A stretch of DNA of 54,830 nt, from positions 1 to 54,830 of the forward strand of contig CANITF010000018.1 in NCBI GenBank assembly GCA_947470515.1, in the 5' to 3' direction. The stretch is from Flavobacteriales bacterium (GTDB lineage: Bacteria; Bacteroidota; Bacteroidia; Flavobacteriales_D; Crocinitomicaceae). Positions within the stretch are counted from its first letter, which is position 1; the number at the start of each line of letters is the position of its first letter. Positions 6,267 through 20,877 of the stretch are shown here, piece after piece. The notes beneath the pieces were generated by a model. That model was not told the origin of the DNA. It made no database searches and saw nothing but the letters and a program-made list of their open reading frames with translations. The position numbers and the translations under genes were made by a program.

Positions 6267-7682
6267 TTAAACCGTCACTTTGGCTTGATACCCAAATAAC
6301 TCATAAAACTTAATTGCTTTTACAACTTCAAAAGGAACATCTTCTTCCCAGCTTAATCCGCCAGCTTTGATTTTGGAGAGTACATCATCTGACATAATAT
6401 GCAACAGATTTTTGTCATATTCATGAATCGCTTCCATTTTATTATTGTCCTTTAAAAATGACAATAAGCCATTTAAATGATCTGGAATTTTAAAATTTTC
6501 AAGGTTATATAATTCTCCTGAATCAACATTTATTGCTGGATACACAAACATTTTTACGTTGTGACCAAATCCTCTACCAAAAGCTTCTAACAATCCACCA
6601 GGTAAATTATCATAATAACGTTCATCAAAAATAGTGTGTAAATTATAAACTCCCAAAATCAAACCCATTCTATTTTCTTTGGTAATGGACGCCAAATAAT
6701 CGACCATTTTATAATGCTTCAAGTAATTTGAAATCATTACCGTATAACCTAAAGAACCCAATAACTCAGCTCGATCAACAAAATCTTTGTCTAAGATCTT
6801 CCCATCAGCTGTTAAATCCTTTAAAGTTAATTCGAATATGACATTCAAATTTTCTTCGGAGACATCTCTTTCTTTTAGAAATTGCTTTTTTCCAACTTCT
6901 ACCATGTCAATATGCACTTTCGTAACAGGTCTGAAACGACCTCTTAATAGAAGAATATTCTTCTTATAAAGCGCAGTAGCTGGCTGAAGTACATTTCCAC
7001 ATAAATCAAACATTGTCGCGTCTGTTATTCCGCGCTTCACAAGATTTAATGCAATAATTCTATTATCAATATTCTCAAAATCTTGACCTGAAACACGCAA
7101 CATGTCAATTTCCATGCGATCACGTGGTAAACGGTGAACGAGACTTGTCAGAAATTCATTCAAATCATCGTGGTGGAAATAACACGCATGCACCAAATTC
7201 ACACCTAAAATTCCCAATGCTTCTTGTTGACCTTTGTGACTGTTATCGTGCATTTTAATGTGCAAAATAACATCGTTCGGTTTTTCTTCAAGACCTAATT
7301 GAAATCGAATTCCAACCCAACCTTGCCCTTGATTTGTTTTATGATAATTGAGCGATTCAACTGTATTACAGAAAGCGAAAAAACGAGATTCTTTGTATTT
7401 ATTTGGAAGACGAAATTTTAATGTTTCATATTCTGTCTCAAGCATTGTTAAAAGGCGTTCTTCACATACATAGCGTGTCGCTTCACCATACATCGAATCA
7501 GAAACTTTCATGTCATATGCAGACTGTGTATATGCGATTGTCCCCGAACTTCCTCCTGCTTTAAAAAAATTTGCGGCTACTTCCTGCCCTGCTCCAATTT
7601 CAGCAAAACATCCATAAATATCTGGTGTCAAGTTTACTTTTAAAGCCTTTTCCTCTGTCGTTAATCTTCTTTCGTCAATCAT
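6267..7682 (-). CDS. Conserved protein of unknown function (471 aa)
   Basis: Soluble protein with no signal peptide or membrane helix. I recognise it as a conserved Bacteroidota type that databases label variously as nicotinate-nucleotide adenylyltransferase or TonB-dependent receptor (from memory). The sequence supports neither: no (T/H)xGH nucleotidyltransferase motif, no TonB box or barrel. Distinctive segments are FFKAGGSSGTIAYTQSAY (about 39-56), MHDNSHKGQQEALGILG, and VHACYFHHDDLNEF, the last rich in His/Asp and possibly a metal site. It heads a two-gene unit with the WYL regulator. Function unknown. Confidence 0.75.
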   Translation of the reverse strand: MIDERRLTTEEKALKVNLTPDIYGCFAEIGAGQEVAANFFKAGGSSGTIAYTQSAYDMKVSDSMYGEATRYVCEERLLTMLETEYETLKFRLPNKYKESRFFAFCNTVESLNYHKTNQGQGWVGIRFQLGLEEKPNDVILHIKMHDNSHKGQQEALGILGVNLVHACYFHHDDLNEFLTSLVHRLPRDRMEIDMLRVSGQDFENIDNRIIALNLVKRGITDATMFDLCGNVLQPATALYKKNILLLRGRFRPVTKVHIDMVEVGKKQFLKERDVSEENLNVIFELTLKDLTADGKILDKDFVDRAELLGSLGYTVMISNYLKHYKMVDYLASITKENRMGLILGVYNLHTIFDERYYDNLPGGLLEAFGRGFGHNVKMFVYPAINVDSGELYNLENFKIPDHLNGLLSFLKDNNKMEAIHEYDKNLLHIMSDDVLSKIKAGGLSWEEDVPFEVVKAIKFYELFGYQAKVTV

Positions 7683-7763: not shown

Positions 7764-8837
7764 TCAATTCGGATCCTGAAAATCAGGATTATTAATAAAA
7801 TCGTAATCTGTCAATGTTAATAAAAAGGTTTTCAATAAACTCTTTTCTTGTGTATCTAATTGCACACCACCTTGAAAAGCGTATTCAATCAATGGGTCAA
7901 TTGTGGAACTTTGTTGAATTCCACTTGAATAATGTTCAATTACTTGGTCTAAAGTTGTGAAACGTCCATCGTGCATGTAGGGTGCAGTCAAAGCAATATT
8001 TCTCAAGCTTGGCACTTTGAATTTTCCATTATCGTTTGCATTTCCTGTTATTGCTCCTCGTCCAAAATCTATAAACGATAAATCTAATCCATTGTTACTA
8101 AATTTTTTCACTTGCATCAAAGGTCCATTGTGACAATGAAAGCAATCTGCACCATTCAAGCTTCTGAAAAGATCGTATCCAGCCCATTCTTCAGGAATAA
8201 TAGATGTTAAGGTGGCTTGTTCATTTGAAGAGAGCGGTAAGTTGTTTTCAAACTTATACATCACATCATACTTCGAAGAACCAGAAATCATGGTTCTTAA
8301 AAATTGAGCAATCGACTTCGAAACTTTAATTGAATCAATTCCTTCTTCATTGAATGCATTGAAAAACATATTTCTGTAATTCATGTCGGCATTTAATTTA
8401 GCAACAGCATTTGGCCAAGACTGGTGCATCTCAATTGGGTTTGGAACGGGAGATAGAATTTGCTCTTCCAAGGTTTTTGCTCTGCCATCCCAAAAAAAGA
8501 AATTTTGCCAACCTAAATTGATAAGTGCCATAGAGTTTCTGTTCCCAGAGATTCCATCAATACCTACTGAAAATTGATTTGGATCAGTGAATGAATTTTC
8601 AGGAGAATGACACGCAGCGCAAGAAATCGTATTATCGCCACTTAATTTTTTCTCGTAAAATAATTTCCTTCCCAACTCAACTCCTTCAACGGTCATTGGA
8701 TTGTCTTCTGGAATAATCATATCTGGAAAATGGGAAGGAATGTCCAACACATAAGGCGTCGGCACGTGACCAACTTTATCCTTTTTGCAGGATAGAAAAA
8801 TCGCAACGCTGATAAAAATAAGTAAGAGATATTTCAT
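7764..8837 (-). CDS. Di-haem cytochrome c peroxidase family protein, MauG/MbnH-like lipoprotein
   Basis: 357 residues. A lipoprotein signal ends at Cys17 (IFLSCKK), so it is a periplasm-facing lipoprotein. Two c-haem sites are present: C73-A-A-C76-H77 and C232-F-H-C235-H236. The family segments FFFWDGRAKTLEEQ (about 113-126) and PYMHDGRFTTLDQVI (about 286-300) are intact. These proteins are either peroxidases or MauG-type enzymes that oxidise residues on a partner protein. The upstream gene encodes an MbnP-like protein, which favours an MbnH-like role: oxidation of a tryptophan on MbnP. I start at the ATG at 8837, which shares its A with the upstream TGA stop (TGATG); a TTG one codon earlier is unlikely. 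Confidence 0.9.
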   Translation of the reverse strand: MKYLLLIFISVAIFLSCKKDKVGHVPTPYVLDIPSHFPDMIIPEDNPMTVEGVELGRKLFYEKKLSGDNTISCAACHSPENSFTDPNQFSVGIDGISGNRNSMALINLGWQNFFFWDGRAKTLEEQILSPVPNPIEMHQSWPNAVAKLNADMNYRNMFFNAFNEEGIDSIKVSKSIAQFLRTMISGSSKYDVMYKFENNLPLSSNEQATLTSIIPEEWAGYDLFRSLNGADCFHCHNGPLMQVKKFSNNGLDLSFIDFGRGAITGNANDNGKFKVPSLRNIALTAPYMHDGRFTTLDQVIEHYSSGIQQSSTIDPLIEYAFQGGVQLDTQEKSLLKTFLLTLTDYDFINNPDFQDPN

Positions 8838-9589
8838 CAATAAAAGCTTATTGCATCCTTAAAATTTTGAATAACTTTCAAGCTCAGTGACTCTTGTCCA
8901 GCAGAGGAATGAGAAGAATATTCCGTTTTCAAATCAATTGTTTGAATTCCATTTTGCAAGAATTTCTGCATGTCTAATTTTAACGGCAAGGTATACAATC
9001 CTGTTCCTGAAGCTGTCCACGTTATTGACGGCAATGAAATAGGTTGTATAAAAGCATCTGTTCCGATGTGGAAAATCACAAAATGGTCAAAATTTTCAAT
9101 TGCATCTGCTGTGGTGTCCACTTTTGCTTCCACTTTCATGAAAATATACCCAGGATTCCAATCCCAATGCATGTCGTTTGCAATTGCAATATTCAATGGA
9201 TTATCATTCGCGAAAGCAGATGGATCTTCGTGGTTATAAAGCTGGTCAACACCAACAAAACCATTCAAAGAAGCATAATCAGCTGGCTTTCCAGGCTTAC
9301 TAAAAAGCAACGTTCCAGTTTCTCGATAATCATATAAAGCAGCTTTACATAATTCATTTGAACCATTTTTCATACTCGTGAAATAGCATTTCAAATCTGT
9401 AAATTGAACCAGATAACCTTCGGCAGTTGTAAATGTTTGATCCAACAGAAGTTCGTTTGTACCAAAAGTTGGCTGCATTGTTACTTTCAAATAATCAACA
9501 ATTGGAATAGGTTCAGTAACCTGATCATCCTTACAAGATGTTAGAACAGCTGCAGCAAGTATGATATACAACGTGAATTTTAAATACAT
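8837..9589 (-). CDS. MbnP-like copper-binding lipoprotein
   Basis: 250 residues. A lipoprotein signal ends at Cys19 (AAAVLTSCKDD). The body matches the MbnP family: YLVQFTDLKCYFT near 59-71, the segment MHWDWNPGYIF (140-150) holding Trp142 and Trp144, and FDHFVIFHIGTD (167-178) with His169 and His174. In the characterised methanotroph pair, MbnH converts a tryptophan of MbnP to kynurenine and MbnP binds copper; the WDW segment is my candidate for that tryptophan. It is translationally coupled to the di-haem gene. The ATG at 9589 is chosen over a TTG at 9598. No methanobactin biosynthesis genes are in view. Confidence 0.82.
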   Translation of the reverse strand: MYLKFTLYIILAAAVLTSCKDDQVTEPIPIVDYLKVTMQPTFGTNELLLDQTFTTAEGYLVQFTDLKCYFTSMKNGSNELCKAALYDYRETGTLLFSKPGKPADYASLNGFVGVDQLYNHEDPSAFANDNPLNIAIANDMHWDWNPGYIFMKVEAKVDTTADAIENFDHFVIFHIGTDAFIQPISLPSITWTASGTGLYTLPLKLDMQKFLQNGIQTIDLKTEYSSHSSAGQESLSLKVIQNFKDAISFY

Positions 9590-14942: not shown

Positions 14943-17873
14943 TTACTTAAGAACATTCACATATCCACTATAAGTAAACATGTCATCACTATAAATATCT
15001 TTTGCTTTAATAGTCCAAGTATATGTTCCGTCTTGAACAATTTCACCTTTATATACACCATCCCATGTTTCAGAAGGATTTCTCGATTCCCAAACAATTT
15101 CTCCCCATCGGTTATAAACCAATAATTCAAAATTGTAAACATCAATCCCTTCCATGTGAATTCCCCATAGTTGGTTAAATTCATCTGAGTTTGGTGTAAA
15201 TGTATTTGGGACATAGATTAATATTTCAGGAAGTACAATAACAATTTGAGCAGATGTATCGATGCATCCATATTCAGAAGTAGTAATTAAAATGACATCA
15301 TAATTTCCTACTTCTCCATCTGGGAAGGTTGTTTGAACATTTTGAGATTGCGCATAAGATGGATTTCCTTGAGTAATAAACCATTCATAACTCACACCAT
15401 TAGTCGAATAATTTATCAATTGAACCGTTGGATTAAACATCTTAACCGGATTTGGACTATAACCAAAATTCGCCACTGGCATAGGATAAACAGTTAAGAA
15501 ATTAGTAAACAACGCAGAATCAATACATCCTTCTGGTGAAGTTACGATCAATTGAATACTGTAAATTCCAGCTTCTAAAGAATCAAGTTGTATGGATTCT
15601 TGATCAATAAATTGTTGACCATTTGATACTTGCCATTCTAAATGATCAACGAAATTTGGGTCGGTTATATTTAATATATTAAAGAATGCCGGCTCACAAA
15701 CTGCTATATCAGCAGTGCTTATTAATGGAATAGGTAATGGTAGTAATGTAATAGTTGAAGATAAGACTAATGGTGCAGACTCACAACCATCTGTTACCGT
15801 AACAGTATAGGTGGAAGTTGAATTTGGTGAAAAGATCTGAATTGATGTAAAACCTGAATTAGTTTGTCCCGCTGACCAACTGAAATTATAAGGTCCGTTA
15901 TTTCCGCCTGACGCAGATGCAGTGATAATTGAAGAAAAACCGGGACAAATTATTGAATTCGGTGAGATTAAACCGCTTATTCCAGGCAATACCGAAACAC
16001 TTATAGTATCCGGTAGGGATAAACATCCAAATTCATTTTCTGCATATACGATGTATTGAGAATTAATTGTTGGACTCACAGTTTGGCTATTTGCTTCATT
16101 CGTTGTGAAATCCCAATGATATAAAAATGTATTGCCCCCAACAGCAGTGGCTAATAAATTAGCGCTTCCATTTTCACAGATTGTTGTATCATTTGAAACT
16201 GATAATTGTAATGGAATCGGATTTACAATCGTTACAGTAGAACAAACAGTACAACCCAATGCATTTTTTGAACAAACAGTGTAAGTTCCGCTGGATAATC
16301 CAGTAAGTGTGGCATTGGCAACCCAAGTTATTGCATTATCAAAACTATATTGCACAGCACTAGGACTAACAATAGTTATTTGACCGTCAATTTGGCCGAA
16401 ACAAGAAGGAGGTGTAACATTTACGGTTTGTTGCTGTTGAATCACAAGCACTCTTACAGTGTCTCGATTCATTCCACAACCAACATTCGTCTCTCTCAAT
16501 ATAAATTGATACAAGCCTGGTTGATTAACGGTTACGGTTGGAGTAAGAGAAGAGAAATTTGGAGAAAAAGAAACAGCAGGTGTTGGAACAATTCCTGAAG
16601 TTAATGTTTGCCAAGACATTGTATTCCCCAAGCTCGTTTGCGTTCCAAAAAGAAAAATTGGACTTCCCAAGCAAACAGTGTCATCAATTCCGGCATTCGG
16701 CATTGGCGGTGTGAATGCGTTTACTGTAATATTTGAAACTGATGCCGATGGGCATAAAGGATTATTGGAACTAGTTGTCATCGTATATATATGAGGACCT
16801 GAAGTTACCGGAGTCGCCAAAACAAGACTTCCTGTCAAAGCACTTAAATCGGGTGATGCGTTCCAATTATAAATTCCACTTCCTCCACTTGCTGTCAATG
16901 TAACCGTTGTTCCTAAACAAATATTTGTTGCAGAAGAAGTAACTTGGCCAGATACTTGTATTCCAGAATTAACGCCAATCGTATAGTTACATACATCACC
17001 AGCATAGCCATCAATCATCATGTAATAGGTGTTACCAGGAATTAATCCAGTTGCCGTAATTGGAGAAAAGCTCGCAGAAGGCAATAACTGAGAAACGCAT
17101 GTATACGTTGTAACTGGTCCTGAGCAATTAGTTGCTGAAAAAATCAATACTTGAATTCCCAAATTAGATGAACTACTCGTAACCCACACGTTTAGGGAAA
17201 CGATTGGTGCATCCGCTACAAATTGAATGAACGAATTGTTTTCAATAGAACCACAAAAAGCTGTGCCCAATTCAGGCCAAAAATCTGCCGTATAAGCTGC
17301 AGACGTACTTCCACAATATCCACTTACATCGCAAATCAAAGCAGCTTGTGCGCATGTGTTTCCTGCGGGAGCAGAACTTGAACATGCAGGTAAAACTGCC
17401 GGTTGCGACACACAAATAAGAAAAGACAAATCAATTGGGTCGGTTGCATCAAAGTGATAGACTCGAATCCAGTAAGTATTTCCAACAATCAATGATGTTA
17501 GAGAGGTAATTTCAGTTCCACCGTTTCCATTACTATTCGTACAGGCTAATGAAGCGAAAGCGCTACAACTACCCGAATATACTTGAATAACTGGATTAAA
17601 CGTTGCACCTCCACTCACTTGGACTGAAAGGGAAGTTTGTGTTGCTACAAAACTATACCAAACGTCATCATCAGCTACACCGGCACATCCAGAAGATGAT
17701 TGAGTTGCATTGGCTAACGTTCCCGTTACTGGAGTACATGAAACACTAGCTGTTAAACTAATTGCTCCTAAACAATTATCATTGGAAGGCTGCGCGAAAG
17801 CTAAACCTGAATAAGAACAAAAAGAAAAAAGTAAAATACTTAAATGAAAATATGATTTTGTTATTTGAATCAT
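14943..17873 (-). CDS. Secreted giant protein with gliding/T9SS C-terminal sorting domain (976 aa)
   Basis: A signal peptide is at 1-27 (cleavage near AFA/Q). The N-terminal part (about 30-310) has two beta-rich modules with paired cysteines (SNDNCLGAISL, DDDVWYSFVA; then NTCAQAALICDVSGYCG). Next come a row of Ig/PKD-like modules (about 310-885) and a C-terminal sorting domain at about 886-976 (VPNTFTPN, VYNRWGEIVWES, WDGVYKG, DGTYTWTI). This domain (TIGR04131/CHU_C type) targets proteins through the type IX secretion system to the surface. From about residue 390 on it is clearly homologous to the neighbouring upstream protein, whereas the N-terminus differs. Adhesion or matrix function is plausible but unproven. 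Confidence 0.9.
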   Translation of the reverse strand: MIQITKSYFHLSILLFSFCSYSGLAFAQPSNDNCLGAISLTASVSCTPVTGTLANATQSSSGCAGVADDDVWYSFVATQTSLSVQVSGGATFNPVIQVYSGSCSAFASLACTNSNGNGGTEITSLTSLIVGNTYWIRVYHFDATDPIDLSFLICVSQPAVLPACSSSAPAGNTCAQAALICDVSGYCGSTSAAYTADFWPELGTAFCGSIENNSFIQFVADAPIVSLNVWVTSSSSNLGIQVLIFSATNCSGPVTTYTCVSQLLPSASFSPITATGLIPGNTYYMMIDGYAGDVCNYTIGVNSGIQVSGQVTSSATNICLGTTVTLTASGGSGIYNWNASPDLSALTGSLVLATPVTSGPHIYTMTTSSNNPLCPSASVSNITVNAFTPPMPNAGIDDTVCLGSPIFLFGTQTSLGNTMSWQTLTSGIVPTPAVSFSPNFSSLTPTVTVNQPGLYQFILRETNVGCGMNRDTVRVLVIQQQQTVNVTPPSCFGQIDGQITIVSPSAVQYSFDNAITWVANATLTGLSSGTYTVCSKNALGCTVCSTVTIVNPIPLQLSVSNDTTICENGSANLLATAVGGNTFLYHWDFTTNEANSQTVSPTINSQYIVYAENEFGCLSLPDTISVSVLPGISGLISPNSIICPGFSSIITASASGGNNGPYNFSWSAGQTNSGFTSIQIFSPNSTSTYTVTVTDGCESAPLVLSSTITLLPLPIPLISTADIAVCEPAFFNILNITDPNFVDHLEWQVSNGQQFIDQESIQLDSLEAGIYSIQLIVTSPEGCIDSALFTNFLTVYPMPVANFGYSPNPVKMFNPTVQLINYSTNGVSYEWFITQGNPSYAQSQNVQTTFPDGEVGNYDVILITTSEYGCIDTSAQIVIVLPEILIYVPNTFTPNSDEFNQLWGIHMEGIDVYNFELLVYNRWGEIVWESRNPSETWDGVYKGEIVQDGTYTWTIKAKDIYSDDMFTYSGYVNVLK

Positions 17874-17927
17874 CTCAAATTATTGGAAAACAAAAATGGA
17901 AATTAATAAAGCGTAAAATTACGGTTT

Positions 17928-20522
17928 TTATCTTAAAACATTCACATGTCCGTTGTATACATATTTTGCATCATTAACAAGATCTTTCGTTCTTATAACC
18001 CAAGTATATGTTCCGTTTTCCACGTACTTTCCTCCATAAGTTCCATCCCATTTTGCTGTTGGATCATGAGATTCCCAAATTATTTGTCCCCATCGATTGT
18101 ACAGTAACAACTCAAAATCATAAACATCTATACCTTCAATATAAATCCCCCATGATTGATTGAATTCATCATTATCAGGAGTAAAAGTATTAGGAATAAA
18201 CATTATTATTTCTGGCAGAACAATAACCAATTGCTCAGTACTATCGATACAACCAAATTCTGAAGTTGCAATTAACATAACATTATATTGACCTTCAACT
18301 CCATCCGGAAATAATGTTCTCACATGCGTTAATTCTGAATAAGATGGGTTTCCAGACTCTATATACCAATTAAACGTTACGGCATTTGAAGAATAATTTG
18401 TCAATTGAACGTCTGGATTAAACATAAACACAGGGTTTGGACTGTGATTGAAATTTGCATTTGGTTTCGGGTAAACAGTCAAATAATTATAAAAAGTAGT
18501 TGAATCAACACAACCTTGAGGAGATGTAATTACCAATTGTACATCATACAAATCAGACATCATATCTTCAGGTCGAATTGTATCTACATTTTGAAAAATT
18601 TGGCCATCTGATATCTGCCAATAAACTAAGTCCACCATTGTTGGATCAGTTTCATTAATGATTACAAAATTCGCAGGTTCACATTCCTTGTCATTATCCA
18701 CAGAGATTAATGGAACTGGTAAAGGTGCTAAAATCACATTTGTAGTTAAAACTAGTGGGGTAGATTCACAACCGTCATTCACTATTACTGAGTACTGAGT
18801 TGTTATAGATGGATTTGCAGTAATCGAATGGGTAGGTCCATTACCAATTTCACCTGAACTCCAAGTAAATGTATAGGGCGCACCAATTCCTCCTATTACA
18901 GTTGCCGTTAAATTAGTTGGATAACCTGGGCAAATTGTAACATTTGGTGTAATTGTGCCAGTTAAAGGAGTTCTTATCGTAACATTAATTGTTTCTGTAG
19001 CCGAAATACAACCATTTTGATTTTCTGCAAAAACAGAATATGTTGTATTTACTGCAGGACTTTCAGGTTGTGAAGCAGCTGTATTTGTAGTTTGATCCCA
19101 ATTAAATAAGTAAGAAGTTCCTCCAGTAGCAGAAGCCAGTAATGCAGCTGTTCCATTTTGACAAATCAATGTATCATTTGAAACAGAAATAGTTACCAAA
19201 GCGGGATTAGTCACTATGACATTTGAACATGTTTGGCAACCCGATGCATTTCTTGAACAAACTGAAAACGTTCCAGCATTAAAAACAACTGCAAATGAAT
19301 CAATCTGCCATGTAACTCCATTGTCAAAACTATATTCGTCAGCAAATGGACTTGTAATATGTATTTCTCCATCTGCTAAACCGAAACAACTTGGGCTAAC
19401 AGAACTTGTTGTCTGGGAAATTTGTGAAACAAGAACACGAACAGTATCTCTTCCGTACCCGCAAGTAACATTATTTTCACGCAAAATAAACTGATATAAC
19501 CCAACTTGATTTACGGTTACTGTTGGTGTCAATGAGCTAAAATTGGGTGAAAAAGAAACTGTTGGAGTTGGCACAATCCCAGAGGTTATTGTTTGCCATG
19601 AAGGTGAATTTGTTGCCGAACTTATTGTCCCATTCAAATAAATAGGTTGTCCTAAACAAACGGTATCATCTATTCCAGCATTTGGAACTGGAGGAGGAAC
19701 AACTGTAATTGTAAAAACAGCTGTATCAATAAATTGAGAAGAAGTTGAACTAGCAGGCTGAAAAACTTGAACTTGATAAGTAGTTGTAACGGCAGGAGTA
19801 ACAATAACATTTGATCCACCCGATGTATTTGAGACACCATTCGTAACTAACCATGTAAATTGTGGTGTTGCCAAACCTGGTGTTGCAATATTTACTGTTG
19901 CAGATGCACCTTGACATATTGATTGATCAGGCGCTGAGACACTGCATGAAACACCTGCTGTTCCAAAGAAATTCAAATTAACATTTTGACTTGTTCCACT
20001 GTAATTTGAAAGACACAATAAATACTGTTGACCAGCAATTACGTTTAATGGAGCTTCATAACTTGAAGGCGAACCTAATGGAGGCAATTGTCCAGCAGGA
20101 GCCATACCAGTATTTCCATTACACGAACCATTCCAATTACAAGCCACTGGAGATAATGTGTTTCCCGTTATTCCAGCACACGTAACACCTGAATTAACAT
20201 ATGGCCACATTATCCAATCAAAACACCCTCCATTTGGCCCAATAATAGACCATGCCAATGTTCCAGTTGTAGTAACAGAAATTGTAATAAAGGTGGAACT
20301 TGTTTCTCCACTCAAAAGACATCCTGAATTACCAGAAGAACCCGGATTGGTAGAAGGATTTGAAATACTACCAGATGTGAAATCTACAATGTTAGTTGCC
20401 GGATTATTGGGTGCAATTCCAAAGGATGGTGTTGTACAACCAGGAACAGCATCTACACAATCATTTGGCTGAGCCAAACAGTAGCAGCTTGTAAATAAAA
20501 AAAGAATAATTATAAATCTCAT
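17928..20522 (-). CDS. Secreted giant protein with gliding/T9SS C-terminal sorting domain (864 aa), paralogue
   Basis: A signal peptide is at about 1-17 (FLFTSCYCLA/Q). The N-terminal region (about 18-195) holds a cysteine-containing beta module unlike that of the neighbour (CVDAVPGCTTPSFGIAPNNP, TFITISVTTTGTLAWSI). Ig/PKD-like repeats follow, and the same sorting domain is at about 774-864 (IPNTFTPDNDEF, LYNRWGQIIWES, WDGTYGGK). Roughly the last 580 residues align with the downstream paralogue, including PNAGIDDTVCLG and DGCES modules. The ATG at 20522, four bases after the previous stop, gives a clean signal peptide; the TTG at 20546 lies inside the upstream gene and is rejected. Confidence 0.9.
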   Translation of the reverse strand: MRFIIILFLFTSCYCLAQPNDCVDAVPGCTTPSFGIAPNNPATNIVDFTSGSISNPSTNPGSSGNSGCLLSGETSSTFITISVTTTGTLAWSIIGPNGGCFDWIMWPYVNSGVTCAGITGNTLSPVACNWNGSCNGNTGMAPAGQLPPLGSPSSYEAPLNVIAGQQYLLCLSNYSGTSQNVNLNFFGTAGVSCSVSAPDQSICQGASATVNIATPGLATPQFTWLVTNGVSNTSGGSNVIVTPAVTTTYQVQVFQPASSTSSQFIDTAVFTITVVPPPVPNAGIDDTVCLGQPIYLNGTISSATNSPSWQTITSGIVPTPTVSFSPNFSSLTPTVTVNQVGLYQFILRENNVTCGYGRDTVRVLVSQISQTTSSVSPSCFGLADGEIHITSPFADEYSFDNGVTWQIDSFAVVFNAGTFSVCSRNASGCQTCSNVIVTNPALVTISVSNDTLICQNGTAALLASATGGTSYLFNWDQTTNTAASQPESPAVNTTYSVFAENQNGCISATETINVTIRTPLTGTITPNVTICPGYPTNLTATVIGGIGAPYTFTWSSGEIGNGPTHSITANPSITTQYSVIVNDGCESTPLVLTTNVILAPLPVPLISVDNDKECEPANFVIINETDPTMVDLVYWQISDGQIFQNVDTIRPEDMMSDLYDVQLVITSPQGCVDSTTFYNYLTVYPKPNANFNHSPNPVFMFNPDVQLTNYSSNAVTFNWYIESGNPSYSELTHVRTLFPDGVEGQYNVMLIATSEFGCIDSTEQLVIVLPEIIMFIPNTFTPDNDEFNQSWGIYIEGIDVYDFELLLYNRWGQIIWESHDPTAKWDGTYGGKYVENGTYTWVIRTKDLVNDAKYVYNGHVNVLR

Positions 20523-20526
20523 TTGC

Positions 20527-20877
20527 TTATTTTTCACACCCTTCAAAAGGAAATGGTTTTACGACATCAATTCCTTGACGACCTATTTGAATACATCTAA
20601 CTTTATCAGAATATTGATTAAACCATGAAATGAAATTTTCTTCAGATAATTCATCTAAATTTTGGGTCAAAATAAAAGATCTTTGTGTATTGTAATCTAA
20701 ACGAATGACTTTAATATAAGGATTAGATCGCATTTCGGTCTCTAGAACACGCATTTCTTCAGGACTGTCAACTTCAATCATTGATTGAGCAAATAATACA
20801 GTTTCAGTATTGGATGTTTGAGAAAATATATTTGTCGTGATAAACAACAAAAAAATTCCAAGTAATAAATTTTTCAT
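20527..20877 (-). CDS. Small secreted protein preceding the T9SS paralogues (116 aa)
   Basis: A signal peptide is at 1-20 (MKNLLLGIFLL...NIFSQ). The mature part is about 96 residues, mixed alpha/beta, with one pair of cysteines (Cys95 and Cys114) likely to form a disulfide in the periplasm or outside. No family is recognised. The C-terminus GIDVVKPFPFEGCEK is distinctive. It is first in a three-gene run, with its stop four bases from the next ATG, so it is co-expressed with two surface proteins and may help their export or attachment (inference). The ATG at 20877 is chosen because upstream in-frame starts would put charged residues ahead of the signal peptide. Confidence 0.8.
   Translation of the reverse strand: MKNLLLGIFLLFITTNIFSQTSNTETVLFAQSMIEVDSPEEMRVLETEMRSNPYIKVIRLDYNTQRSFILTQNLDELSEENFISWFNQYSDKVRCIQIGRQGIDVVKPFPFEGCEK

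Follow-up and report, generated by a model that had tools for sequence, protein, structure and literature searches.

Two overlapping genes on the minus strand of contig CANITF010000018.1 (assembly GCA_947470515.1; a Flavobacteriales bacterium of the family Crocinitomicaceae) raise the question whether this member of the Bacteroidota carries the partner proteins MbnP and MbnH, and what the second would do to the first. The stretch analysed, called the window below, comprises 54,830 nucleotides. The first-pass annotation, made from the DNA letters, had proposed an MbnP-like copper protein coupled to an MbnH/MauG-like di-haem enzyme through a TGATG stop/start. Both genes lie where it had placed them, with one base in common, and the Trp-Asp-Trp segment of the upstream protein (residues 142-144) and the two CxxCH sites of the downstream one (73-77 and 232-236) were confirmed in the sequence (Table 1). 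We consider it likely that this is a genuine MbnP-MbnH pair, in which MbnH would oxidise Trp142 of MbnP to kynurenine to give a Cu(I) site.

The identity of the two proteins is backed by profile, fold and residue evidence. The upstream protein passes the Pfam model PF20243 (77.3 bits, E 1.9e-21, curated cut-off 27), and its AlphaFold2 model, computed with a 29-sequence alignment (A1) as input, has a mean predicted local distance difference test score (pLDDT) of 89.8. When this model was compared with the Protein Data Bank (PDB) by Foldseek, six matches had E <=0.001, all of them chains of 7l6g (E 9.6e-7 to 8.5e-6), the entry for MbnP from Methylosinus trichosporium; the following match had an E value of 0.088. 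No MbnP came up when the PDB was searched by sequence with the window MbnP alone, with the narrow profile A1 or with the paralogue from a second pair in the source genome. A profile of 66 diverse MbnPs (A3) does find 7l6g by sequence (E 2.2e-6), with Met140, Trp142, Trp144, Gly147, His174 and Asn119-His120 in register with the same letters (NHS in 7l6g). As the rows of A3 were picked for having a WxW motif, we do not use the invariance of its tryptophans as evidence. A CorA/MopE-type protein was considered as well and rejected, neither being among the best 50 fold matches of the window MbnP.

The downstream protein passes PF03150 (CCP_MauG; 182.9 bits, E 7.2e-54, cut-off 25.6), and its best PDB match by phmmer is 6e1c, a "Di-heme enzyme" (180 bits, E 6.2e-52), which we take to be MbnH of M. 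trichosporium OB3b; a di-haem peroxidase follows with 135 bits, and the MauG entries reach 82-88 bits. Trp116, Gln126, Pro130 and Glu136 are spaced identically to Trp93, Gln103, Pro107 and Glu113 of MauG, and Gln126 and Pro130 are found in 131 and 147, respectively, of 156 full-length paired MbnHs. The ends of the phmmer alignment (query residue 305 against MauG 296) place Tyr303 at MauG Tyr294, and this residue is the predicted axial ligand of the second haem. The classical bacterial cytochrome c peroxidases have Met, not Tyr, as second axial ligand; the window protein has Tyr at that place, and the printed peroxidase alignments stop before the column. For MauG, PMC6405878 mentions Trp93, Gln103 and Pro107 in its text and Glu113 and Tyr294 in the titles of its references.

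Could the downstream protein, then, be an ordinary cytochrome c peroxidase that clears peroxide, with MbnP a mere partner or electron carrier? Such peroxidases belong to the same PF03150 superfamily, and the second place of a di-haem peroxidase among the PDB matches is in keeping with such a role. We nevertheless regard it as quite improbable: the protein scores 256 bits with the MbnH equivalog model TIGR04039 and 16 bits with the NCBIfam di-haem peroxidase model NF040606, Tyr303 stands at the place of MauG Tyr294 in 149 of 156 sequences, and pairing with MbnP is frequent. With MauG itself, which acts in methylamine dehydrogenase maturation, the window enzyme shares the di-haem superfamily, the residue spacing and the Tyr303/Tyr294 register; it differs in having MbnP as its partner and in a score with the MauG model TIGR03791 (151.7 bits) below the cut-off of 443.85.

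Table 1. The gene pair of the window and the residues discussed in the text (positions within the window).
Feature	Position	Strand	Details
mbnP-like gene	8837..9589	minus	250 amino acids from ATG at 9589; lipoprotein-like start; PF20243, AlphaFold2 model matching 7l6g
Cys19, predicted lipidated Cys, followed by Lys-Asp-Asp	9533..9535	minus	Cys in 46/46 close orthologues
His120 (Asn-His), further candidate ligand	9230..9232	minus	45/46 close orthologues, 86/173 of all paired MbnPs; aligned with NHS of 7l6g
Met140, candidate copper ligand	9170..9172	minus	Met in 159/173 paired MbnPs; aligned with Met of 7l6g
Trp142-Asp143-Trp144 (WxW)	9158..9166	minus	Trp142 is the predicted kynurenine site; conservation in orthologues
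His174, candidate copper ligand	9068..9070	minus	His in 169/173 paired MbnPs; aligned with His of 7l6g
TGATG stop/start overlap	8835..8839	minus	one shared base, 8837; sequence
mbnH-like gene	7764..8837	minus	357-amino-acid di-haem protein from ATG at 8837; lipoprotein-like start; PF03150, TIGR04039, 6e1c
First haem site, CAACH (73-77)	8607..8621	minus	both CxxCH in 156/156 paired MbnHs
Trp116, counterpart of MauG Trp93 between the haems	8490..8492	minus	128/156
Glu136, counterpart of MauG Glu113	8430..8432	minus	156/156
Second haem site, CFHCH (232-236)	8130..8144	minus	both CxxCH in 156/156 paired MbnHs
Tyr303, counterpart of the MauG axial ligand Tyr294	7929..7931	minus	149/156; sequence register; aligned with Tyr of 6e1c

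The two genes are kept together well beyond this contig. In the source genome, which is 99.94% complete, the three PF20243 and three PF03150 matches form three adjacent pairs. PF20243 is present in 58 of 60 genomes of the family (source genome included), and the window MbnP used as a query has a match in 184 of 200 family genomes. At least 94 of 128 MbnP places have a MauG-domain match within 2.5 kb, which in at least 93 cases lies downstream in the same orientation; these neighbour counts draw on 150 of the 210 MauG-domain matches and are, hence, lower bounds. For 56 of those 150 genes there is no MbnP nearer than 2.5 kb, so that not every MauG-domain enzyme is an MbnH. We further collected 218 loci, many of them chosen for likeness to the window MbnP and thus not a random sample, which hold 196 distinct MbnP-like open reading frames: 173 have an MbnH within 1.5 kb (downstream on the strand of MbnP in 168), 17 have none and six could not be judged. 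The mirror-tree correlation between MbnP and MbnH was 0.864, species relatedness left in, against a maximum of 0.129 in 999 permutations.

The setting of the window-type pair is constant among 31 loci of relatives. There, mbnH adjoins mbnP in 29, the other two ending inside mbnP; the same divergent UvrD-type helicase gene lies upstream in 29, the contigs of the other two beginning in mbnP; and the same gene for a 471-amino-acid protein lies downstream in 27, the other four contigs ending first. The window pair has the look of a core locus passed on vertically. Plasmid-borne copies were rejected, as there was no match in the plasmid collection. The 471-amino-acid protein, encoded directly 3′ of mbnH (window 6267-7682), is 76-97% identical among relatives and has no Pfam or NCBIfam match at the limits used. 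In the contig of one relative (L082:6654-7731), mbnH is broken into two overlapping frames, perhaps by a sequencing error.

Trp142 and Trp144 sit inside NDMHWDWNPGYIF, which is invariant across the 29 rows of A1, and both are present in every one of the 46 distinct close orthologues; a lack of conservation in close homologues was what the first-pass annotation had named as telling against an MbnH-type assignment. Among paired MbnPs, Trp142 occurs in all 168 full-length sequences and in 170 of the total of 173, the remaining three being two fragments and one neighbouring open reading frame, while Trp144 occurs in 163 of 168 and 165 of 173. The first-pass annotation had left the target open between the two; Trp142, the first Trp of WxW, is the likely one, and Trp144 is less favoured, as in OB3b the product is reportedly kynurenine at the first Trp. 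That the oxidation falls instead on Trp144, or gives a Trp-Trp cross-link within WxW or with Trp191, is in our view very unlikely. Trp144 is retained nearly as well, and MauG itself forms a Trp-Trp cross-link (PMC3912023); against this, Trp144 is absent from five of the 168 full-length paired MbnPs and Trp142 from none, and Trp191 is kept in just 66 of 173.

For OB3b, Manesis et al. (2021) reportedly found kynurenine to arise from the first Trp of WxW by the action of MbnH, and this kynurenine is said to be needed for binding of Cu(I) at a site that includes His and Met. By analogy with the OB3b pair, we infer the same product at Trp142, with Met140 and His174 as likely ligands. Both proteins would be exported and held by a lipid anchor; MbnH, as a di-haem enzyme of the MauG type, would react with peroxide to reach a high-valent state and oxidise Trp142; and Kyn142 with Met140 and His174, perhaps also His120, would make up a site for Cu(I) beyond the inner membrane, by which the pair might take part in copper supply. 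The lipobox-like N-termini (LTSC in MbnP, FLSC in the di-haem protein) were judged by eye, without a signal-peptide program.

The product could also be used elsewhere than in copper handling, for instance with another metal or for redox purposes at the outer membrane. In favour of this alternative, the window pair has no copper genes beside it, position 141 varies between His, Tyr and Phe, and His120 is not universal; from the latter two points it follows that ligand sets may differ between subfamilies. We deem a use other than copper rather unlikely, as 7l6g, too, has Met and His at the positions aligned with Met140 and His174, and some MbnPs of relatives stand under leaders of the CutF-like type, which is tied to copper elsewhere (PMC9973294).

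A number of observations weigh against a copper-handling MbnP-MbnH pair and have to be set beside the evidence above. The window MbnP scores 31.4 bits with the NCBIfam equivalog TIGR04052, the cut-off of which is 140, and lacks the four cysteines that go with this equivalog: besides Cys19 it has only Cys68 and Cys81, found in 22 and 15, respectively, of 46 close orthologues. (The 7l6g record bears the older name "four-Cys motif protein".) The 256 bits of the di-haem protein likewise fall below the TIGR04039 cut-off of 362.85, as do the scores of its two paralogues (226 and 250.5 bits); being below the equivalog cut-offs, both proteins are to be seen as a divergent branch. The structure prediction advised by the first-pass annotation, which for MbnP leads to 7l6g, gave a poor model for MbnH (pLDDT 58.3). 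The neighbours of the window pair are the UvrD-type helicase, a urocanase, a WYL regulator and an unknown protein, with no copper gene among them.

The two remaining points concern MbnPs without a partner. In the 17 unpaired MbnPs, Trp142 is kept in 13, Trp144 in eight, Met140 in seven and His174 in 13, and for Trp144 the difference from the paired ones (165/173 versus 8/17) gives a Fisher p of 5.8e-7 on raw counts. By an independent-pairs test, with about six partner changes on the tree, this decay is not significant, and we, therefore, do not claim an association of partner presence with motif retention. The test used 185 of the 196 rows, after omission of the six not judgeable for a partner, four shorter than 190 amino acids (one of them also a neighbouring open reading frame) and one further neighbouring open reading frame. 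Moreover, genome G050, with a stated completeness of 99%, encodes an MbnP with an intact MFWSW (L153:2261-3148) and has no CCP_MauG match, which implies that WxW is not kept only for MbnH; this MbnP may need no MbnH or may rely on a different oxidant. In view of these two results, our data fit, and do not prove, an action of MbnH on WxW.

How does the window pair relate to known systems? With MbnP/MbnH of OB3b it shares the MbnP fold, the M-x-W-x-W and His register, the adjacency of the genes and, if 6e1c is indeed MbnH, the best PDB match of the di-haem partner. It differs in the low identity of its MbnP in the fold alignments (13-14%), in the missing four-Cys pattern, in scores below the NCBIfam cut-offs and in a source genome without MbnB. 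The latter bears on the earlier statement that methanobactin genes are absent, which stands for MbnB: the source genome has no PF05114 match in a search that covered MbnB alone among the mbn genes and was positive as a control in 2 of 14 genomes. A methanobactin locus was ruled out on this absence of MbnB. In CorA/CorB and MopE/SACCP of methanotrophs, the copper site consists of kynurenine and two His, and a di-haem cytochrome c peroxidase is co-transcribed (PMC3912023); a di-haem partner and a kynurenine-copper site, the latter predicted for the window pair, are found there too.

The suggestion of a separate, new system in Bacteroidota does not hold, because the conservation of the mbnP/mbnH pair far beyond the methanobactin producers analysed has already been published (PMC3621798). 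The window pair belongs to a known, widespread family, a placement that is well supported and no surprise. Our literature search showed, among the titles and abstract openings listed, no paper on a Bacteroidota MbnP, a weak negative, as subscription papers were mostly beyond its reach. If the proposed chemistry is true, a protein-made kynurenine copper site would be a conserved part of the envelope across a Bacteroidota family, here in a genome without MbnB, and MbnP/MbnH would no longer be an accessory of methanotrophs and would instead count as a copper or redox device of general use. The small divergent pair would also be useful for testing what the modification is for.

Of 60 window-type MbnPs, 39 have at least two acidic residues directly after the lipidated Cys; of 52 MbnHs, one does. 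Surface lipoproteins of Bacteroidetes carry an acidic signal after this Cys, with an optimum of C-X-K-(D/E)2-X (PMC5080379). From the predominance of the signal in MbnP, this protein may be surface-exposed and MbnH not, a reading that is weakened by the position of the Lys at +2, not +3.

Some side findings are more novel than the window pair: MbnPs tagged for the type IX secretion system (T9SS), a second pair headed by a sigma factor of the extracytoplasmic function (ECF) type, and CutF-like leaders upstream of other MbnPs. The second pair of the source genome (contig C44, L001:5-3130) is preceded by genes for an ECF sigma factor, a 93-amino-acid protein and a weakly Metal_resist-like (CnrX/Spy-like) protein; of these, the sigma factor and the Spy-like gene are again found ahead of the pair in nine loci of relatives. 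Five of 10 Spy-like proteins match Metal_resist at E <=1 (best 7.2e-5), the copy of the source genome scoring 14.2 bits, below the cut-off of 29.2. Long MbnPs with a C-terminal extension occur at L002:158-2139 (source genome, contig C23) and in L134, L139, L166, L170, L174, L176 and L201. Since seven of 10 scanned long copies pass the cut-off for a T9SS type A sorting domain, some MbnPs are probably secreted by this system; the long MbnP of the source genome itself has no match to the sorting domain.

A family of proteins of about 130 amino acids with the pattern C-x-N-x(n)-C-x-G-x-C-x-L (among others L151:4450-4860, L135:4636-5055 and L137:973-1365) occurs in 13 of the 17 MbnP loci without a partner and in 17 of the 167 with one, relatedness left in and loci of less than 3000 bases omitted. 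The distinct members number 31; in 30 of these the gene precedes that for MbnP in the same orientation, and in 30 a Pro-Pro stands close to the C-terminus, its end 1-10 residues away. Five members scanned had no Pfam match over the cut-off. A match to the family is present in 120 of the 296 genomes sampled from the phylum, and the source genome's own match (L228; contig C3:141145-141534) is on a contig without an MbnP match. By architecture, the family resembles CruR and CutF, which are copper-sensing leaders (PMC9426467, PMC9973294). It may already be known, because a figure legend in PMC9973294 includes Bacteroidota among the phyla with CutF-like proteins. Tentatively, Crocinitomicaceae might possess a surface copper network without methanobactin, made of parallel kynurenine-copper units: the lipid-anchored core pair, T9SS-tagged forms in relatives, pairs with an ECF sigma factor and a CnrX/Spy-like sensor, and partnerless MbnPs under a CutF-like Cys/Pro-Pro leader that perhaps senses copper during export.

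Elsewhere in the window, two large adjacent open reading frames (14943-20546; 976 and 872 amino acids) have signal-like starts and C-terminal ends that are alike.
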